Part shown: piece by piece, positions 8,152-60,234 of the stretch
Numbering within the stretch: the stretch's first letter is position 1
Layout of the letters: each line of letters starts with the position of its first letter
DNA from: Owenia fusiformis
Taxonomy: Eukaryota > Annelida > Polychaeta > Sabellida > Oweniidae
Length of the DNA stretch: 64,000 nucleotides
NCBI GenBank assembly: GCA_903813345.2
Contig: CAIIXF020000008.1
Coordinates: 30,592,867 to 30,656,866, forward strand
Reading direction: 5' to 3'
Program-made: the position numbers and the translations under genes
The notes under the pieces: generated by a model
What the model was told of the DNA's origin: nothing
What the model saw: only the letters and a program-made list of their open reading frames with translations
Databases searched by the model: none

Positions 8152-9949
8152 AAGAACGTTCCTCATGGTACTTAAATGTCCTTTAAAGTCGCAGATGGAT
8201 TTGGACTACATGCTTTTTCTTTTTGATGTGCATCACTTGTCAACATGAACCAATGAAATCTATCATTTTTCTCGATTTTTTACTTACTTTTTGTTTTTCA
8301 TTTGAATAAAATTGAAAGGGTCGACTCTATTGAAACATGAATCGATGCGATTATGAAAAATGATGCTAAAGACGATAAGAAAATGATAACAGTTTTATTT
8401 GGGAAGAATTTATTATTAGGCTTGTTCACTATTCATCCGCATGTCGATTTTCACAAGACAAAATAAACAAATGACAATGAGTTAGAAAGTTCACTTTAGG
8501 GAACGCTTACTTCACGAATCGACATTTCTGATATGTAGGATATAACTAGCTAAATTTAGAAACATCCAGTTTGTATTTGTATCCAAATATGACCACGTTT
8601 ATGTAAAATTTCCCGTCAAAACCTGACATAAATCATGATTTGCAGAATCTTGTCGTGTTTCACATTTTATTCTAAAATATCGTGAAAGAAAATTTTAGTA
8701 CATGTACGTTTTACGTCCATGAAACCATATACAAGCAAAGTTAATGTGCAAAGTTAACAAGCAAAGTTAATGAAAAGTGAACACATCTTTTCTGCATTCT
8801 TTTCACACCAACTGTACCAAAACATTGCACTGATTCATGAAACCAGGATATTACATTTTTTAGATTGAATGACAATGGGATGACAGATGCCATGTCGCCA
8901 AAATAATTTTTTGACACCCTTGGCATATGTTTTCCCTTTTATCACATATACCAGATATGGTACCTTGACTTGTTTTTACAATATAATTTGAGTAATTTTT
9001 CCTTTGGGTTTAGCTTTTAATGAATGCTTAGACCAGTTGCAGGTTGACGTAGTGACGCTTTTCCTGCATGTATCACAATAACAGGACAACCATTTACGTC
9101 ATATTGGAGTACAAACAGCATCTTTCTTGATATCTAGATCTGAAATGTCCCTTTAACATATTTTAAATCAAGATGTCGATCCTCATTCTACTCGAGTGTA
9201 CTTATCAATTGTAACATATGATATTGATGTCGAGACAACTCAGTCAAGTCTATTATGGCTGGCGTATAGTTCAATCATAAAAAATCATCTGCACTGGTGT
9301 AGACACGTTTCTCTTGACACCATTATCTGCGGAGTGCTTCGCCAATGAACCCCTCCTCTGTCTCCAAGTTCTTATCACAAGAGCCCTTTTCCATGACCAC
9401 TTGAAGTGTTTTGATAACTATGCTTTGGTGGCCGCTTTAGAGAAACAAATTTCTTTCTTATCAGACTCGATCCCTTTCCGGATTTCTCATTTCGCATCTC
9501 ATAACTTTCGTTAAACTTGTTCCGTCTGATGTTTTGTTTTTCTTTGAAGCTCTTGAAGTCTATATATTTTTAGTGGTATACCCCCGGTTTTATTTTTCGA
9601 AGAGGGGAAGAATTCATCTCGCTTTTGTTGCCTCTATCGTCGCATGTGCATCTTGTGCTTTATGTTTCTAAAATAGTAGTTCGATTGGCGATATTTTTCA
9701 ATGAGGAACATAATTTTAATCACCGCTTGTCTTGACTTTTTGCTTTTTTTGTTCTCGGACGTTGATTACTTTTTGTTTTCTCTATATCATGTTTTGCAAC
9801 GAATTACGTTTGACGAAGGCACACTGAATCTTATACATCAGATCGTAATAATGTATCTAGGAGATCAGATCGTAATAATGAAATTAAAAAATACCTAATA
9901 AGCCAATAAACATCGTTGAAAAGCTATAAAATCGTTCGTGTTACAAATA
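8152..9949. other. Non-coding spacer of B1
   Basis: No exon is recognised. It holds one of the CATGTCGATTTTCAC 15-mers at 8440 (another lies just upstream, at 8074) and a triple CAAAGTTAA repeat near 8738-8770. The clean empty target site of the 3.6-kb element (ATTAT at 9322-9326) is also here. Short open frames differ in frame between B copies through small indels, so they are not coding. Confidence 0.6.
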
Positions 9950-18892: not shown

Positions 18893-21800
18893 AAGAACGT
18901 TCCTCATGGTACTTAAATGTCCTTTAAAGTCGCAGATGGATTTGGACTACATGCTTTTTCTTTTTGATGTGCATCACTTGTCAACATGAACCAATGAAAT
19001 CTATCATTTTTCTCGATTTTTTACTTACTTTTTGTTTTTCATTTGAATAAAATTGAAAGGGTCGACTCTATTGAAACATGAATCGATGCGATTATGAAAA
19101 ATGATGCTAAAGACGATAAGAAAATGATAACAGTTTTATTTGGGAAGAATTTATTATTAGGCTTGTTCACTATTCATCCGCATGTCGATTTTCACAAGAC
19201 AAAATAAACAAATGACAATGAGTTAGAAAGTTCACTTTAGGGAACGCTTACTTCACGAATCGACATTTCTGATATGTAGGATATAACTAGCTAAATTTAG
19301 AAACATCCAGTTTGTATTTGTATCCAAATATGACCACGTTTATGTAAAATTTCCCGTCAAAACCTGACATAAATCATGATTTGCAGAATCTTGTCGTGTT
19401 TCACATTTTATTCTAAAATATCGTGAAAGAAAATTTTAGTACATGTACGTATTACGTCCATGAAACCATATACAAGCAAAGTTAATGTGCAAAGTTAACA
19501 AGCAAAGTTAATGTGCAGTGAACACATCTTTTCTGCATTCTTTTCACACCAACTGTACCAAAACATTGCACTGATTCATGAAACCAGGATATTACATTTT
19601 TTAGATTGAATGACAATGGGATGACAGATGCCATGTCGCCAAAATAATTTTTTGACACCCGTGGCATATGTTTTCCCTTTTATCTCATATACCAGATATG
19701 GTACCTTGACTTGTTTTTACAATATAATTTGAGTAATTTTTCCTTTGGGTTTAGCTTTTAATGAATGCTTAGACCAGTTGCAGGTTGACGTAGTGACGCT
19801 TTTCCTGCATGTATCACAACGACAGGACAACCATTTACGTCATATTGGAGTACAAACAGCATCTTTCTTGATATCTAGATCTGAAATGTCCCTTTAACAT
19901 ATTTTAAATCAAGATGTCGATCCTCATTCTACTCGAGTGTACTTATCAATTGTAACATATGATATTGATGTCGAGACAACTCAGTCAAGTCTATTATGGC
20001 TGGCGTATAGTTCAATCATAAAAAATCATCTGCACTGGTGTAGACACGTTTCTCTTGACACCATTATCATCTGCGGAGTGCTTCGCCGATGAACCCCTCC
20101 TCTGTCTCCAAGTTCTTATCACAAGAGCCCTTTTCCATGACCACTTGAAGTGTTTTCATAACTATGCTTTGGTGGCCGCTTTAGAGAAACAAATTTATTT
20201 CTTATCAGACTCGATCCCTTTCCGGATTTCTCATTTCGCATCTCATAACTTTCGTTAAACTTGTTCCGTCTGATGTTTTGTTTTTCTTTGAAGCTCTTGA
20301 AGTCTATATATTTTTAGTGGTATACCCCCGGTTTTATTTTTCGAAGAGGGGAAGAATTCATCTCGCTTTTGTTGCCTCTATCGTCGCATGTGCATCTTGT
20401 GCTTTATGTTTCTAAAATAGTAGTTCGATTGGCGATATTTTTCAATGAGGAACATAATTTTAATCACCGCTTGTCTTGACTTTTTGATTTTTTTGTTCTC
20501 GGACGTTGATTACTTTTTGTTTTCTCTGTATCATGTTTTGCAACGAATTACGTTTGACGAAGGCACACTGAATCTTATACATCAGATCGTAATAATGTAT
20601 CTAGGAGATCAGATCGTTATAATGAAATTAAAAAATAATAAGCAAATAAACATCGTTGAAAGGCTATAAAATCGTTCATGTTACAAATAAGAGATGCCAG
20701 TTTATGCTGTTCACCATTCAAAATGATGCATTCATTGAAAAGGAAACTGAACTCAAACGTTTTAATAGACTTTATGATTGAAGTCAGCAATCCCCGGGAA
20801 TGCACTGAACGAAACGCCATTCACAGAGGTTAACACATTTTGGGCTATAATGGTCTTCGTAGTGATTTTTGTAGTAAATATCTTTCGGTAAATTATGCTT
20901 ATGGAAGTTCCAAATAACTTGTCATCTCCATGCATGTAACGTATTTTTGTAAAGACGTCTAAAATTGAAAAGGCACGCTGAAAAAAGAGAAAACTCTTTT
21001 AACTGTTATCTTTTGTTGTCTATCAATTGATCTTCATTCGTAATTACCGGAACATTGTTATACATGTGTTATCAGAGTATTGGTAATCATATAAAATCAA
21101 ATCAATCCATCTGTGAGTTATACAAATGACGAATTTACTGCTTTGAGTCCATGTCGATTTTCACGCATGTCGATTGTCACAGTTTCACACCATATTCGCT
21201 CATAGATGGGGTCGTGCTGGTTATTTCGTAAAATAGTTTCGTTAAAACAGAGTGGATGTATTGTTTTCTTAGATAGTGTCCATCTTTACACAAGAATGCT
21301 GTCCATGTTTGAATTACATCTTAGTGGTTTTTCACAAGAAAAATGGTGAATTCTCAGAAATGTTCAGATCATGCTTATTATAATTCAATCACAATTATTA
21401 TCACGATTTGGAACATGGTGGTCTGATATACTGAATCAAGGACTTGCTAACCACATATATTTTATTTTTCTCGGATTCCCCTGATGTCGTGTGTGTGTGT
21501 TTTAACGACCATGTCGATTTTCACAGAATAAATTTTACATTTACTTTCTTGGGTCTATATAATCGGTAATAGGTGGAGACCAAATACAATGCTCTCATCA
21601 CACTCTGAATGAATGTTCTCTATGCCAGCATAATCAAAATTAAAAGATGCGACCATTTATTATTGAGATATGACATGTTTTCAAAAGCGTGTTGTCCTGT
21701 TACATTGACAATTTCACGAAATTCACAATTTTGGAGCCAGATATCAAAGCTACTTACAATCGGAACAAGATCAAAAAGTATGCTGACGTAGTTCAGATAA

Positions 21801-34980: not shown

Positions 34981-36425
34981 TAGTATATATCTGTATACAT
35001 TTGTACATTCGTTACCAAAGGCATTGAAGTAAACTCCAAGGAAGAATAGGCGAATTTTCAAATTGAAATTAGGGTCCGTCTCAAACATGTCGATTTTCAC
35101 ATCTTGACCCCTTGATTAATATGTCAAGCCATTCAAATTAGAATGCAACATTTTCAAAAAAACAAGAACGTTCCTCATGGTACTTAAATGTCCTTTAAAG
35201 TCGCAGATGGATTTGGACTACATGCTTTTTCTTTTTGATGTGCATCACTTGTCAACATGAACCAATGAAATCTATCATTTTTCTCGATTTTTTACTTACT
35301 TTTTGTTTTTCATTTGAATAAAATTGAAAGGGTCGACTCTATTGAAACATGAATCGATGCGATTATGAAAAATGATGCTAAAGACGATAAGAAAATGATA
35401 ACAGTTTTATTTGGGAAGAATCTATTATTAGGCTTGTTCACTATTCATCCGCATGTCGATTTTCACAAGACAAAATAAACAAATGACAATGAGTTAGAAA
35501 GTTCACTTTAGGGAACGCTTACTTCACGAATCGACATTTCTGATATGTAGGATATAACTAGCTAAATTTAGAAACATCCAGTTTGTATTTGTATCCAAAT
35601 ATGACCACGTTTATGTAAAATTTCCCGTCAAAACCTGACATAAATCATGATTTGCAGAATCTTGTCGTGTTTCACATTTTATTCTAAAATATCGTGAAAG
35701 AAAATTTTAGTACATGTACGTATTACGTCCATGAAACCATATACGAGCAAAGTTAATGTGCAAAGTTAACAAGCAAAGTTAATGTGCAGTGAACACATCT
35801 TTTCTGCATTCTTTTCACACCAACTGTACCAAAACATTGCACTGATTCATGAAACCAGGATATTACATTTTTTAGATTGAATGACAATGGGATGACAGAT
35901 GCCATGTCGCCAAAATAATTTTTTGACACCCGTGGCATATGTTTTCCCTTTTATCTCATATACCAGATATGGTACCTTGACTTGTTTTTACAATATAATT
36001 TGAGTAATTTTTCCTTTGGGTTTAGCTTTTAATGAATGCTTAGACCAGTTGCAGGTTGACGTAGTGACGCTTTTCCTGCATGTATCACAACAACAGGACA
36101 ACCATTTACGTCATATTGGAGTACAAACAGCATCATTCTTGATATCTAGATCTGAAATGTCCCTTTAACATATTTTAAATCAAGATGTCGATCCTCATTC
36201 TACTCGAGTGTACTTATCAATTGTAACATATGATATTGATGTCGAGACAACTCAGTCAAGTCTTTTATGGCTGGCGTATAGTTCAATCATAAAAAATCAT
36301 CTGCACTGGTGTAGACACGTTTCTCTTGACACCATTATCACGGTGAGCAACCATACCGCACCGGGGATCGACCCCGGTGCGTTACACTTTTCCCCGGAGC
36401 GTTGGTAACGCACCGTCCTTTTAAA

Positions 36426-37129
36426 ATGACGGACGGAAATGTGTTTCCTCCGGAGGAAACAAATAATAGTGGGAACCAGAGGTGAGTGAATATCTTTTAA
36501 CACATTCCATTCTAAACACGATATATCAGGGTACCTTATTAAAATTCCACAAAGCTGTAACATATCGGTATTATGTGAACGAAATGTAAATGCACCTTGA
36601 AAAATTCGAAGGAAAGTTAAAGGCTCGTCTAAAATGTTGTATTTCTTGTCAAAGAAATGATTGGAACAACCACAGATTTTTTTACTCAATATAGATATAT
36701 TTATAAACATACTATTCTTCAATATCTTACAATTCGAACATTGTATAAGCGTCATTTATTTATATGAAACGTACCTTCCAAAATTGATGGGGTAACGCAC
36801 CGACACAAATCTCCGACAATTTAGAAACGCACCGGTTTTATTTTAACAGGAAACGACGGAGAAGTTCTGGACTGCAAACTGGGCATTCAAGATACAAGAA
36901 ACGCCTGAAAATTGCACCTACCGTCACTACAAGCGACGCTGGTTGTACAAAAGCCACAACTAACGATAAATCACTTAAGACACCAATCAATGCTAATACA
37001 AAGGCTATCAGAAGTGCTAGGAAAAATGCACCAAAGAAAAGAAAAAAGCCAAAAATTAGAAAAACATTGTTTGAACAATCACACATACACGTCGCACGAA
37101 ACAGGGGACAATTACAATGGGCAGCATAG
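36426..37129 (+). CDS. Predicted two-exon gene of the 3.6-kb element, basic protein
   Basis: Exon 1 is 36426-36481 (ATG, 18 codons plus two bases, donor GTGAGT at 36482). Exon 2 is 36850-37129 (acceptor TTTTAACAG, stop TAG at 37127). The join restores one frame of 111 residues. The protein starts MTDGNVFPPEET and is then strongly basic, with K-R-R-R-S-S and P-K-K-R-K-K-P-K-I-R-K clusters like nuclear localisation signals. I recognise no family. Exon 1 could also splice to the exon at 37941, as both are phase 2. This may be the 5' end of a decayed transposase-type gene or a captured host fragment. Confidence 0.4.
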
Positions 37130-37940
37130 GGCGCAATCAGCATTATAACGTCAGAAACGACAAGCGTTACATTTTGTCAAGTTTAGTCAACCTAAAAATA
37201 AGATGCTTTATTCTTATCCAATCCTGGTGAAATTCACAGAGCAAGAAGATCTCGAGGACAATATTTCTAAAATGTTTTTGATTTTTGAAAAACGGTCAGG
37301 AAATCCACTCGGGGCGTTAGTAAAAATTGATATGTATGGGATTTGTGGTAAAAAATCGATGTGTTACATTTTCAAGTCTCTAAAAGCAACTCTTATTCTC
37401 TTATTATTTGAAAAATAAAGAAATCGGTTATTGTTTTGTAAATTTCGCCATGACAATATTGTGCAGTTAAATTTTTTTTGAAATCAGACCTAAATTAGAA
37501 GGTTAAATAAAGGTAAACTTATTGCTTGTCTCCTTCGCCTTCAAAACCTTACACAATTTTGAAAATCTTAAAAGCGTTCATAGAAGACGATTTGAACTGT
37601 AGCCGCTAGGCAATTGTGACGTCATAAAAGCACATGTTTCAATGAATAAAATGTGAAATTTTAGTGAAATTCTGATCAGTATTTCAAAAGTTATTCCGAT
37701 TTCAACGAACCGTGTAAGCGTGAAATGTTACGCCTTACAGCGTATCTAACGATGTCGGAATACATTTAACTTAAAAAATATGGTAGATCCCATCATACTT
37801 TTCAAGGAAAAATAATTTCAGTGAAATGCGAATAAAAAATACTTCAAAATCATATATAATACACATAGTTAGCTTTTTAAATAAGGCAGATATTAACGCT
37901 TAAAGCTGAGATTAGCCCGTATTTCCCGAATTGTCCCCAG

Positions 37941-38135
37941 GTCCGTGCACGTCATAACACTGATGCTACCAAATGTCATATTGTGTCTCAGAAGACACAG
38001 TTTTTGCACCGAATTCATTATGCTACTAAGACTCCTCGCGAAAGACAAATTCCCAATGAATAACATATCGTGGCTTCTTTTCCTGGAGGTTGTGAGGTGG
38101 TATTCCCTTAGTTCCACCTCAAACATGACGTACAG
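37941..38135 (+). CDS. Possible internal exon of the 3.6-kb element
   Basis: Bounded by acceptor TTGTCCCCAG and donor GTATGG and open in one frame for 65 codons. It contains F-P-M-N-N-I-S-W-L-L-F-L-E-V-V-R-W-Y-S-L, which looks like a folded-domain segment rather than random AT-rich sequence. Entry phase 2 matches the exon 1 donor at 36482. The family is unknown to me. Confidence 0.35.
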
Positions 38136-38706
38136 GTATGGTTGTTAGCTTTAGAAGCAAACCCTCACTCTGGAAGTACATTTCACATAACAAGGTATTT
38201 CATAATGACCGTCCCCTGTCAGTCACCAATCCTAGATGGCGCACCTCCATGTGTTATAATATCATAGGAAAGCTCAATCAATTCATGACTTATTAAAACA
38301 ACTTTGATTAAGCTCTGCAGCTTTTACGCTCTTTTTTAAGCTCTTAATGATACGAATAATAATGTTATTAATTGTCCCTCTCTTTAAACCCAATGTACAA
38401 ATAGAAGCCATAAATCCAGCAAATTAGGATGATAGTGACGACAAAACATAAATCCACAAATTATGGTCCCAACGATCACTCGTTCCAATATTTAGCCCAT
38501 AAGTGCATTATTAAAAAAGCTGTATGATGATGTATAGATTAAGAGAATCTAAAGGCCCATGTGATTTAGGATTGGTTTTGGATGGGAGAGGGTAATTATG
38601 AAACACCCTATACAATACACAAATGCATAAAAAAATCAAAGTACGAAATGTGATAGTTTGCAAAATACGGTAATACATACTACAGGCGATAAAGATATGA
38701 CACTTT

Positions 38707-39231
38707 CACTGGTCAGAATCAAGATGCGGTAACGACCGTTACCTTCTTATCTAAGATGGCGGACGAAAAATGTCGATTTCGATATTTTTTGTTTTCATCA
38801 AATTTAAACTACGTATAATTGACGCAATGCTTTGATATTTGAACTTGATAAGCCTTATATATCATGGAAACTTTGGAGTATGACCATTTATTCTTAAATC
38901 ATACACGGGCGCCATAATTCAATTATATGTTACACCGCTTAAGGGAAGGTAACTGAGAGTTCGATTTTGCAAAATTCACTTCCATTTACCTTCCCTTAAG
39001 CGGTGTAACATACAGTTGAATTATGGCGTCCACGTATGATTTAAGAATAAATGGTCATACTCCTAAGTTTCCATGATATCTTAGATTTATCAAGTTCAAA
39101 TATCAAACCATTACGTCAACTATAAAGTAGTTTAATTCGATGAAAACAAAATATATCGAAATCGACATTTACCATCCGCCATCTTAGATGAGAAGGTAAC
39201 GGCCGTTACCGCATCTTGATACTGACCAGTG
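38707..39231. mobile_element. 525-bp foldback element nested in the 3.6-kb element
   Basis: The two arms of about 250 bp are near-complementary around a short loop (about 38967-38990). The ends are CACTGGTCAG and CTGACCAGTG, flanked by ACTTT on both sides (38702-38706 and 39232-39236). It holds two ATGGCGG-like motifs in opposite orientation and no coding sequence. A 5-bp duplication with a CAC end is the same signature as its host element. Confidence 0.9.
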
Positions 39232-39236
39232 ACTTT

Positions 39237-39878
39237 GATAACATTTCGTGTGTGTCCGTTCTTATACAGCCGGTACCCTCAACCGTGAATTTTACTGGGG
39301 TCATAGGTGTCATTATGCTCAATTGAGGCGGTGGTGGCGTCGTATTCGAAGTGTTTCCACCTACCAGTACATCATCCAGGGGGGGATCTAGAGGTACGAT
39401 ACCGAACATCTGGAAATATTATTGTTCTTATGTTATCAGTATGACCGATAATATAGGGTAATATTAACAAATGAATAAAGCACCGGTGCGTTTCCAAATA
39501 TTGGCCTAATATGACCGGTGCGTTACAACTAGATTTAGTGATATCTCATAAAACTGACCACCATTTAACTCCTAAACTGACACAATTTTGCATGCAACCA
39601 TAAGGATCATGTTGATAAAATATATTCTCGCACAATCTAGGAATACTCTGTATATTTCATAAAAATAATAAAAAACATCAAAATATTTTAATGTTGCTTG
39701 TGCTTTTACATCTTGTTTGCATTATATAGGCTAGTTATCACTGATCTAATCGATCTGGATCATTCCTTAATATATTGTACTTTGAATGGTACATAGGAGT
39801 TCTTCGTACCTAATCACGAAACATCGTAAATCAAACATTTCTACTCACGTCCATTATGCATTTATCATTGTCCGCCAT
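39237..39878 (-). CDS. Predicted converging gene start at the right end of the 3.6-kb element (broken)
   Basis: Minus strand: exon 1 is 39878-39849 (ATGGCGGACAATG..., ten codons, donor GTGAGT), phase 0. Exon 2 starts at 39409 after acceptor ATTTCCAG. It reads M-F-G-I-V-P-L-D-P-P-L-D-D-V-L-V-G-G, then a Thr/Pro-rich stretch (N-T-T-P-P-P-P-Q) up to the foldback insertion at 39236, where the frame runs into the insert. No family is recognised. The inward, tail-to-tail arrangement with the plus-strand gene is notable. Confidence 0.4.
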
Positions 39879-39962
39879 TTTTCTTCACTCCGGAGCGTTA
39901 CAATTTAAGTGTAACGCACCGGGGTCGATCCCCGGTGCGGTATGGTTGCTCACCGTGATTAT

Positions 39963-56615: not shown

Positions 56616-59600
56616 CACGGTGAGCAACCATACCGCACCGGGGATCGACCCCGGTGCGTTACACTTTTCCCCGGAGCGTTGGTAACGCACCGTCCTTTTA
56701 AAATGACGGACGGAAATGTGTTTCCTCCGGAGGAAACAAATAATAGTGGGAACCAGAGGTGAGTGAATATCTTTTAACACATTCCATTCTAAACACGATA
56801 TATCAGGGTACCTTATTAAAATTCCACAAAGCTGTAACATATCGGTATTATGTGAACGAAATGTAAATGCACCTTGAAAAATTCGAAGGAAAGTTAAAGG
56901 CTCGTCTAAAATGTTGTATTTCTTGTCAAAGAAATGATTGGAACAACCACAGATTTTTTTACTCAATATAGATATATTTATAAACATACTATTCTTCAAT
57001 ATCTTACAATTCGAACATTGTATAAGCGTCATTTATTTATATGAAACGTACCTTCCAAAATTGATGGGGTAACGCACCGACACAAATCTCCGACAATTTA
57101 GAAACGCACCGGTTTTATTTTAACAGGAAACGACGGAGAAGTTCTGGACTGCAAACTGGGCATTCAAGATACAAGAAACGCCTGAAAATTGCACCTACCG
57201 TCACTACAAGCGACGCTGGTTGTACAAAAGCCACAACTAACGATAAATCACTTAAGACACCAATCAATGCTAATACAAAGGCTATCAGAAGTGCTAGGAA
57301 AAATGCACCAAAGAAAAGAAAAAAGCCAAAAATTAGAAAAACATTGTTTGAACAATCACACATACACGTCGCACGAAACAGGGGACAATTACAATGGGCA
57401 GCATAGGGCGCAATCAGCATTATAACGTCAGAAACGACAAGCGTTACATTTTGTCAAGTTTAGTCAACCTAAAAATAAGATGCTTTATTCTTATCCAATC
57501 CTGGTGAAATTCACAGAGCAAGAAGATCTCGAGGACAATATTTCTAAAATGTTTTTGATTTTTGAAAAACGGTCAGGAAATCCACTCGGGGCGTTAGTAA
57601 AAATTGATATGTATGGGATTTGTGGTAAAAAATCGATGTGTTACATTTTCAAGTCTCTAAAAGCAACTCTTATTCTCTTATTATTTGAAAAATAAAGAAA
57701 TCGGTTATTGTTTTGTAAATTTCGCCATGACAATATTGTGCAGTTAAATTTTTTTTGAAATCAGACCTAAATTAGAAGGTTAAATAAAGGTAAACTTATT
57801 GCTTGTCTCCTTCGCCTTCAAAACCTTACACAATTTTGAAAATCTTAAAAGCGTTCATAGAAGACGATTTGAACTGTAGCCGCTAGGCAATTGTGACGTC
57901 ATAAAAGCACATGTTTCAATGAATAAAATGTGAAATTTTAGTGAAATTCTGATCAGTATTTCAAAAGTTATTCCGATTTCAACGAACCGTGTAAGCGTGA
58001 AATGTTACGCCTTACAGCGTATCTAACGATGTCGGAATACATTTAACTTAAAAAATATGGTAGATCCCATCATACTTTTCAAGGAAAAATAATTTCAGTG
58101 AAATGCGAATAAAAAATACTTCAAAATCATATATAATACACATAGTTAGCTTTTTAAATAAGGCAGATATTAACGCTTAAAGCTGAGATTAGCCCGTATT
58201 TCCCGAATTGTCCCCAGGTCCGTGCACGTCATAACACTGATGCTACCAAATGTCATATTGTGTCTCAGAAGACACAGTTTTTGCACCGAATTCATTATGC
58301 TACTAAGACTCCTCGCGAAAGACAAATTCCCAATGAATAACATATCGTGGCTTCTTTTCCTGGAGGTTGTGAGGTGGTATTCCCTTAGTTCCACCTCAAA
58401 CATGACGTACAGGTATGGTTGTTAGCTTTAGAAGCAAACCCTCACTCTGGAAGTACATTTCACATAACAAGGTATTTCATAATGACCGTCCCCTGTCAGT
58501 CACCAATCCTAGATGGCGCACCTCCATGTGTTATAATATCATAGGAAAGCTCAATCAATTCATGACTTATTAAAACAACTTTGATTAAGCTCTGCAGCTT
58601 TTACGCTCTTTTTTAAGCTCTTAATGATACGAATAATAATGTTATTAATTGTCCCTCTCTTTAAACCCAATGTACAAATAGAAGCCATAAATCCAGCAAA
58701 TTAGGATGATAGTGACGACAAAACATAAATCCACAAATTATGGTCCCAACGATCACTCGTTCCAATATTTAGCCCATAAGTGCATTATTAAAAAAGCTGT
58801 ATGATGATGTATAGATTAAGAGAATCTAAAGGCCCATGTGATTTAGGATTGGTTTTGGATGGGAGAGGGTAATTATGAAACACCCTATACAATACACAAA
58901 TGCATAAAAAAATCAAAGTACGAAATGTGATAGTTTGCAAAATACGGTAATACATACTACAGGCGATAAAGATATGACACTTTCACTGGTCAGAATCAAG
59001 ATGCGGTAACGACCGTTACCTTCTTATCTAAGATGGCGGACGAAAAATGTCGATTTCGATATTTTTTGTTTTCATCAAATTTAAACTACGTATAATTGAC
59101 GCAATGCTTTGATATTTGAACTTGATAAGCCTTATATATCATGGAAACTTTGGAGTATGACCATTTATTCTTAAATCATACACGGGCGCCATAATTCAAT
59201 TATATGTTACACCGCTTAAGGGAAGGTAACTGAGAGTTCGATTTTGCAAAATTCACTTCCATTTACCTTCCCTTAAGCGGTGTAACATACAGTTGAATTA
59301 TGGCGTCCACGTATGATTTAAGAATAAATGGTCATACTCCTAAGTTTCCATGATATCTTAGATTTATCAAGTTCAAATATCAAACCATTACGTCAACTAT
59401 AAAGTAGTTTAATTCGATGAAAACAAAATATATCGAAATCGACATTTACCATCCGCCATCTTAGATGAGAAGGTAACGGCCGTTACCGCATCTTGATACT
59501 GACCAGTGACTTTGATAACATTTCGTGTGTGTCCGTTCTTATACAGCCGGTACCCTCAACCGTGAATTTTACTGGGGTCATAGGTGTCATTATGCTCAAT

Positions 59601-60234
59601 TGAGGCGGTGGTGGCGTCGTATTCGAAGTGTTTCCACCTACCAGTACATCATCCAGGGGGGGATCTAGAGGTACGATACCGAACATCTGGAAATATTATT
59701 GTTCTTATGTTATCAGTATGACCGATAATATAGGGTAATATTAACAAATGAATAAAGCACCGGTGCGTTTCCAAATATTGGCCTAATATGACCGGTGCGT
59801 TACAACTAGATTTAGTGATATCTCATAAAACTGACCACCATTTAACTCCTAAACTGACACAATTTTGCATGCAACCATAAGGATCATGTTGATAAAATAT
59901 ATTCTCGCACAATCTAGGAATACTCTGTATATTTCATAAAAATAATAAAAAACATCAAAATATTTTAATGTTGCTTGTGCTTTTACATCTTGTTTGCATT
60001 ATATAGGCTAGTTATCACTGATCTAATCGATCTGGATCATTCCTTAATATATTGTACTTTGAATGGTACATAGGAGTTCTTCGTACCTAATCACGAAACA
60101 TCGTAAATCAAACATTTCTACTCACGTCCATTATGCATTTATCATTGTCCGCCATTTTTCTTCACTCCGGAGCGTTACAATTTAAGTGTAACGCACCGGG
60201 GTCGATCCCCGGTGCGGTATGGTTGCTCACCGTG
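56616..60234. mobile_element. 3,619-bp CACGGTG-ended element, copy 2
   Basis: Same length and content as copy 1, with ATTAT at 56611-56615 and 60235-60239. It was duplicated as part of the 20.28-kb block. Predicted gene pieces are at 56703-57406 (+), 58218-58412 (+) and 60155-59514 (-). All open frames I compared are the same as in copy 1. Confidence 0.85.
58984..59508. mobile_element. 525-bp foldback element, copy 2
   Basis: Duplicate of 38707-39231 with the same CACTGGTCAG ends and ACTTT flanks. Confidence 0.88.

Follow-up and report, generated by a model that had tools for sequence, protein, structure and literature searches.

A non-autonomous DNA transposon with RAG-like ends in Owenia fusiformis and its long relatives encoding a putative nuclease-bearing transposase

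The case for RAG-like transposons has been built, among other features, on a RAG-like terminal heptamer, 5-bp target-site duplications and a pair of converging genes, and RAG-like elements with this plan have been published from protostomes (PMC7204232). P elements are known for 8-bp duplications, internally deleted copies and internal transposase-binding sites (PMC7776569). Kolobok elements have a TTAA duplication and 5'-RR termini, and in KolobokE a nuclease lies downstream of the transposase domain (PMC9587614). ISL2EU (PHIS) transposons have two genes, with a YqaJ exonuclease in a separate open reading frame, an AT 2-bp duplication and a THAP-containing transposase (PMC4482050). Here we describe a DNA transposon copy, CACGGTG...CACCGTG, at positions 36339-39957 of a 64,000-nt stretch of the annelid Owenia fusiformis (GCA_903813345.2, contig CAIIXF020000008.1, 30,592,867 to 30,656,866; the whole stretch is called "the window" below). 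A preliminary description, made from the letters of the window, had tentatively regarded this element as kin of RAG and Transib, in the form of a decayed or hijacked derivative, or else as a new superfamily. The comparison with longer relatives in the same genome points to a decayed copy of a possibly new superfamily, and away from kinship with RAG or Transib.

The window element and its long relatives

The window element derives from a cut-and-paste DNA transposon with a pair of converging genes; it is non-autonomous and has lost internal sequence (Table 1). It has 51-bp terminal inverted repeats, and the inverted arms at 36334-36389 and 39907-39962, target duplication included, are 98% complementary over 56 nt. 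Exon 1, part of exon 2 and an N-terminal remnant are retained from the left gene, together with exons 1 and 2 of the right gene, and neither gene is intact. The inward-facing gene starts with GTGAGT donors noted in the preliminary description were recovered just inside each end. The layout of left exon 1 (short, ending in R, then KR-rich) matches that of the relative at locus C3, and the relative C7b also has a short left-gene exon 1 with a donor. The start of left exon 2 is stop-free in 10 of 12 matches outside the window, and positions 39276-39371 are 87.5% identical to the zinc-finger gene of the C4 copy. A tblastn search at an E-value of 1e-3 detected no nuclease, catalytic or zinc-finger part in the window copy.

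Longer relatives were reached by protein searches with both genes in a genome of 498 Mb (525 contigs), and nine loci with at least part of the big left gene were examined; the group is probably larger than this. The C3 element is 11,022 bp long; its ends (CACGGTGTATAACCC) match at 24/24 positions and its duplication is ACCAC. The C7b element is 11,066 bp long, with the right end CACCGTGG and an ATTAA duplication. Both have left-gene frames on the plus strand and converging C2H2 zinc-finger frames on the minus strand, and, as in the window, both genes begin close inside the element ends with a first exon that is very short. This is the converging gene pair that had been proposed for the window copy. 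The left gene encodes a protein of ~1450 residues, for which near-continuous frames were found at C5 (1467 codons) and C11 (1438 codons and a further exon). Converging zinc-finger frames are present at six of the nine loci (C1, C2, C3, C5b, C6 and C7b); none was found at C5, C11 and C11b, where the sequence past the gene covered 1.5, 1.3 and 4.8 kb, respectively. A zinc-finger exon is also kept in two copies of family A, at C4 and in a 10.2-kb copy at C7. The right-gene protein matches C2H2 zinc-finger families by profile scan and by its residue pattern, and C1 has two more zinc-finger clusters past the opposite end of the big gene. Codon position 3 was the most divergent in 6/6 between-family comparisons of the two genes, with saturated synonymous sites, as expected if both genes are under selection. 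The only within-family pair, the zinc-finger exons of C4 and C7, gave nonsynonymous (dN) and synonymous (dS) values of 0.032 and 0.091. Twelve weaker matches, among 35 to the N-terminal domain of the big protein, were also noted, some with frames of 204-299 codons (e.g. C1:44423604, C8:28688792 and C9:26823077).

The window is an array of near-identical units (~94.5-99.6% identity in longer direct matches), which differ by insertions. As had been claimed, the element is flanked on both sides by ATTAT, and another unit of the array has a perfect empty site with a single ATTAT. The flanking DNA is itself a dispersed repeat with at least 40 matches listed, and the same site is uninterrupted in 8/8 fetched dispersed copies of it (34 dispersed matches listed). 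A third unit has a 3-bp insertion at the target site, possibly an excision footprint or a plain 3-bp duplication. The second element copy in the window is part of a 13.8-kb segmental duplication and is not an independent insertion. Across the element and its relatives, 14 of the 17 independent insertions scored have an exact 5-bp duplication, and no exact duplication of another length, longer ones included, was found, in agreement with the length initially proposed. In this scoring the two window copies were counted as one, L017-L019 were left out as both ends were not found, and the right end of L014 (CACCGCG) was placed by extrapolation.

The left 362 bases of the window element have at least 14 genome copies at 98% identity or more, both window copies counted, and the more distant copies mostly have 71-83% identity (all counts are lower bounds). 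A foldback insert is present at the same place in nine other fetched copies (L003-L006, L009, L010 and L012-L014; L003 has only part of it). It is missing from the two copies that carry zinc fingers and from L011, L015, L016, C3 and C7b. Since the insert is common to the copies of the subfamily, the spread of the subfamily took place after the insert had been gained, and this suggests that the proteins were supplied by another element. An Rfam search gave 0 matches.

Nuclease and putative transposase domains of the large protein

The big protein carries a YqaJ/lambda-exonuclease-like nuclease domain. PF09588 (YqaJ, cut-off 22) was matched by C5 with 26.5 bits and by C11 with 35.7 bits, and below the cut-off by the C3 exon (17.5 bits) and a C1 piece (14.6 bits). 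The motif residues E483, D525, E540 and K542 (E, D, E-x-K; C5 numbering, also used below) are invariant in 8/8 aligned proteins. Outside the nuclease, four further positions are candidates for the catalytic residues of a transposase: D213 (D1), which is invariant in 7/7 and stands in 'DGKK' in most proteins and in DGKR in C3; D800 (D2) in 'DGQ[FW]' (8/8); D1250 of 'DxxH' (6/6); and E1422 in 'xE.[FY]F' (8/8). The alignment excludes C2, which has the N-terminus only, and contains recovered fragments without D1 (C5b) or without DxxH (C3 and C1).

It is conceivable that the nuclease itself drives mobility in an element made of a nuclease and a zinc-finger protein, with no DDE domain and with purely structural roles for the other conserved residues. 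Only the nuclease scores above a Pfam cut-off without any joining of pieces of the big protein, and its motif is invariant in all eight proteins. Exact 5-bp duplications together with inverted ends are a hallmark of DDE-type strand transfer, and this combination points away from a nuclease acting by itself, as do the four candidate positions, invariant wherever they are covered, and the joined-piece match to PF21787 across D1 and D2 given below. We regard mobility driven by the nuclease as unlikely.

Whole big proteins gave no transposase match in Pfam or PDB, and the C-terminal part alone matched 0 Pfam families. D213 and D800 resemble the first two catalytic aspartates of P-type transposases, and the stretch between the two pieces was therefore left out and the search repeated. 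For this purpose ~500 residues including the nuclease were removed and the flanking pieces were joined artificially. The joined pieces of C7b matched PF21787 (TNP-like_RNaseH_N, P element/THAP9 type; cut-off 24.6 bits) across both aspartates with 25.5 bits and an E-value of 1.8e-5. Those of C1 reached 23.5 bits across both aspartates, just below the cut-off, and in C3 the match, at 14.2 bits, was confined to the D2 piece. For C7b, the D2 piece by itself scored 20.0, the D1 piece by itself gave no such match, and both pieces with their order reversed scored 19.1, so the score gains from D1 only if the pieces stand in their native order. Joining the C7b D1 piece to the C3 D2 piece as a chimera gave 17.4. 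An alternative triad of D800, D1250 and E1422 was dropped because of the invariant N-terminal D213 and the PF21787 match that spans D213 and DGQ. The genome also has 11 ordinary TNP-like (PF21787) matches, at C7:36774173, C4:29370493, C2:15550777 and eight other places. In four of five such ordinary transposases D1 and D2 are close together in one frame, and the fifth ends before D2. Given the PF21787 match of the joined pieces, the nuclease of the big protein appears to lie within the transposase fold, with one catalytic aspartate (D1) before it and the next (D2) after it.

By hhalign, the big-protein alignment scored 26.0 against five TNP-like transposases of the same genome, and the controls were 10.1-20.1 for 30 column shuffles, 12.8 for the reversed alignment, 20.5 for mariner and 16.7 for RAG1. 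The aligned stretch (78 columns) begins at DxxH, which is paired with the C/DxxH of the TNP-like proteins.

Several observations weigh against this assignment and against the wider account of the family. The PF21787 match depends on artificially joined pieces, and the ~500 residues removed are not the nuclease alone. Of the seven loci, one is above the cut-off, one just below it and one weak, and four (C11, C11b, C5 and C6) have no match. PDB profile searches returned no transposase or nuclease, and the only rows, 6rcc (E 1.6) and BRE1 7w75 (E 0.039), were taken as chance. The hhalign result has a low absolute probability (2.6), so that it supports the assignment without proving it, and it covers only the region from DxxH onward; the mariner control exceeds every shuffle. 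D1 reads DLKK in C5, C3 is without the DxxH segment, and DxxH was not recovered at C1. At the DNA level, the left end of C7b is mutated (CAAGGTG), and three insertions have imperfect duplications, with 4/5 (L015), 2/5 (L016) and 1/5 (L011) matching bases. The search for relatives yielded no intact autonomous copy from the window's own family. The long frames at C5 (L023 1477-5880) and C11 (L024 2773-8182) have no recognised transposon ends in the fetched stretch, and these single-copy loci could be host-adopted genes or elements with other ends. Having weighed these points, we still hold it probable that the left-gene protein is a transposase with an inserted nuclease, and that the family moves in the way proposed in the last section.

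Relation to KolobokE, P elements and RAG

The hAT/P/MuDR/Kolobok/Dada group is characterized by C/DxxH between D2 and E (PMC9587614). DxxH is present there in 6/6 big proteins that cover the region, if D2 is the aspartate of DGQ. One member of this group is KolobokE, in which a Kolobok transposase is combined with a PD-(D/E)xK lambda-exonuclease-like nuclease (PMC9587614), and the window family could be an element of this type, as both join a C/DxxH-group transposase to such a nuclease. However, the duplications are 5 bp of varied sequence instead of the 4-bp TTAA, the ends start with CAC instead of 5'-RR, and the nuclease lies upstream of DGQ, DxxH and E instead of downstream of the transposase domain, which makes a KolobokE-type element very unlikely. 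ISL2EU is similar as a two-gene transposon carrying a YqaJ exonuclease, but neither its AT duplication nor its separate YqaJ frame is found in the window family and its relatives.

The likeness to P element/THAP9 lies in the tentative PF21787 match over D1 and D2 after removal of the middle part (of seven loci, C7b above and C1 just below the cut-off), in the C/DxxH-type motif, and in the internally deleted copies and internal sites, as described for P elements (PMC7776569). The differences are the 5-bp instead of 8-bp duplications, the CACSGTG ends, the nuclease between D1 and D2, and the converging C2H2 gene. A THAP domain was not matched in the N-terminal pieces scanned, namely C2 (279 aa), window exon 2 (92 aa) and the C11 frame.

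The preliminary description was right that the heptamer resembles RAG signals: CACGGTG is one base from CACAGTG, and a table of heptamers from V(D)J recombination assays includes it with values of 1.036 for CACGGTGAT and 1.144 for CACAGTGAT (PMC9723617). A CAC-starting heptamer and 5-bp duplications are shared with both RAG-like elements (ProtoRAG) and Transib, and the two converging genes with RAG-like elements. The family could accordingly be a decayed or divergent RAG-like or Transib member of the CMCT clade, whose RAG1L/RAG2L or Transib-type transposase cut at the CAC heptamer and left the 5-bp duplications, 14 of 17 of them exact. The protein evidence speaks against such kinship. Motifs C(2)C and H(3-4)H in the stretch from D2 to E are common to EnSpm, Transib and RAG1 (PMC12730594), whereas CxxC between DxxH and E is present in 0/6 big proteins that cover the region, and H(3-4)H is present in four of these six at three different positions. 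By hhalign, the comparison with mouse RAG1 scored 15.0, within the range of 20 shuffles (11.6-19.5); this core comparison was made with RAG1 sequences and none with a Transib query. A 289-residue fragment of mouse RAG1 found no RAG1-like gene in the genome (best E 0.575); the 329-residue fragment from which it was taken found amphioxus RAG1L in PDB at 5e-46. A genome search with PF12940 carries no weight, as the control genomes were silent. The partner gene encodes a C2H2-type protein instead of a RAG2-like one, and no genome search was made with RAG2 itself. Finally, the duplications of ProtoRAG, Transib and RAG are described as GC-biased (PMC8289069), whereas the 14 exact duplications here are AT-rich, with 10 G/C in 70 bases (genome base composition not compared).

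A RAG/Transib origin was rejected on the RAG1 genome search, the hhalign score within shuffles and the lack of the C(2)C/H(3-4)H signature, and we consider it most improbable. The search for longer relatives suggested in the preliminary description thus went against its own proposal of RAG/Transib kinship: the ~11-kb elements encode a transposase that is apparently unrelated to RAG and of PF21787 type, above the cut-off in 1/7 loci. The heptamer likeness is genuine and is best read as convergence. Because the three RAG-like features are combined here in an element with a big protein that does not prove RAG1-like in the tests run, these features alone are no proof of RAG kinship.

We would classify the family as a putative new lineage, perhaps of superfamily rank, within the hAT/P/MuDR/Kolobok group, with RAG-like ends that arose by convergence. 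We lean slightly towards a superfamily that is absent from the published lists compared, with a lambda-exonuclease-type nuclease inside the RNase H fold between D1 and D2 and with a zinc-finger gene in converging orientation. Under this reading the heptamer, the 5-bp duplications and the layout of two genes would have an origin separate from RAG, and the zinc-finger protein would coevolve with the subterminal AACGC-type sites. No description of the nuclease-in-transposase architecture was found in the open-access literature searched; it is possibly catalogued in Repbase or subscription papers, most of which lay outside the search. Among viral contigs, 32 stretches matched a pattern and none was confirmed.

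Features of the window and a proposed mechanism

The motif AACGCACCG occurs seven times in the window element, compared with a mean of 0.013 in 300 resampled sequences, for a motif chosen after seeing the element. Measured from the left end, the sites are at 37/69 and 456/488, and measured from the right end, at 37 and 434/466. The C3 element has AACGCTCCG six times, three of them at 36, 68 and 455 from the left end, and C7b has AACGCGGC four times, at 17 and 434 from the left and at 17 and 58 from the right. The site sequence varies by family, and two of the three families compared have almost equal spacing from the left end. These repeated subterminal sites are putative binding sites of the zinc-finger protein or of the basic N-terminus of the big protein.

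Table 1. Coordinates of the element, its genes and related features in the window
Feature	Position	Strand	Remark
Empty site, single ATTAT, another array unit	9322-9326		
Target site in third array unit, 3-bp insertion (ATTATCATCTGCGG)	20063-20070		insertion absent from 8/8 dispersed copies
ATTAT, left copy of 5-bp target duplication	36334-36338		
Left terminal inverted repeat, begins CACGGTGAGCAACC	36339-36389	+	24/24 terminal match
Distal AACGCACCG pair	36375-36415		36375-36383 (-), 36407-36415 (+)
Left gene exon 1, MTDGNVFPPEETNNSGNQ and R across junction	36426-36481	+	GTGAGT donor at 36482
Proximal AACGCACCG pair	36794-36834	+	36794-36802, 36826-36834; inside left-gene intron 1
Left gene exon 2 start, basic KRRRSS...NAPKKRKKPKIRKTLFEQ	36850-37129	+	shortened in window copy
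~0.87-kb stretch with 20-nt inverted repeat	37086-37953		repeat at 37094-37113/37929-37948; common to L006 only among fetched copies
Left gene, N-terminal domain remnant of ~1450-aa protein	37954-38139	+	54-60% identity to C3
Foldback insert	38706-39232		255-nt arms around 17 nt
Right gene exon 2 remnant (MFGIVPLDPPLDDVLVGGNTSNT...)	39262-39409	-	without zinc fingers; inner end approximate
Right-hand proximal AACGCACCG pair	39484-39524	-	39484-39492, 39516-39524
Right gene exon 1, MADNDKCIMD	39849-39878	-	GTGAGT donor 39843-39848; equivalent exon 1 in C3 and C7b
Right terminal inverted repeat	39907-39957	-	CACCGTG at end
Right-hand distal AACGCACCG	39913-39921	+	
ATTAT, right copy of 5-bp target duplication	39958-39962		
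Second element copy	56616-60234	+	carried by 13.8-kb segmental duplication

The stretch at 37086-37953 is probably a nested insertion. The candidate nested element, also seen in L006, has the inverted repeat GCACGAAACAGGGGACAATT / AATTGTCCCCAGGTCCGTGC and possibly ACGTC at both sides. Other nested sequences were noted around the relatives: the C4 copy contains frames of what is presumably a mariner-type transposase (L007 2241-3491), and the C3 element appears to lie inside what we take to be a retrotransposon, with reverse-transcriptase and tyrosine-recombinase-like frames on the minus strand (L025 174-2192, L008 5067-6927). A second large foldback, with 418-nt arms of 95% identity, lies upstream of the C5 big gene (L023 7310-8160).

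We propose that the ~1450-aa left-gene protein would act as a transposase with an RNase H-type catalytic domain (P element/THAP9, TNP-like), in which D1 in 'DGKK', D2 in 'DGQ[FW]', the DxxH motif and E in 'xE.[FY]F' would form the catalytic layout, with the nuclease lodged in the interval from D1 to D2. Binding of the subterminal AACGCNCCG-type sites and pairing of the two ends would fall to the zinc-finger protein or else to the basic N-terminus of the big protein. The enzyme would cut at CACSGTG and join the ends to target strands staggered by 5 bp. The nuclease may trim DNA at excision or insertion, which is the least certain step. Copies of the window type would depend for their movement on proteins from another element. 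If the nuclease indeed lies within the catalytic fold, the protein would be of unusual design, joining strand transfer and end processing in one natural fusion.

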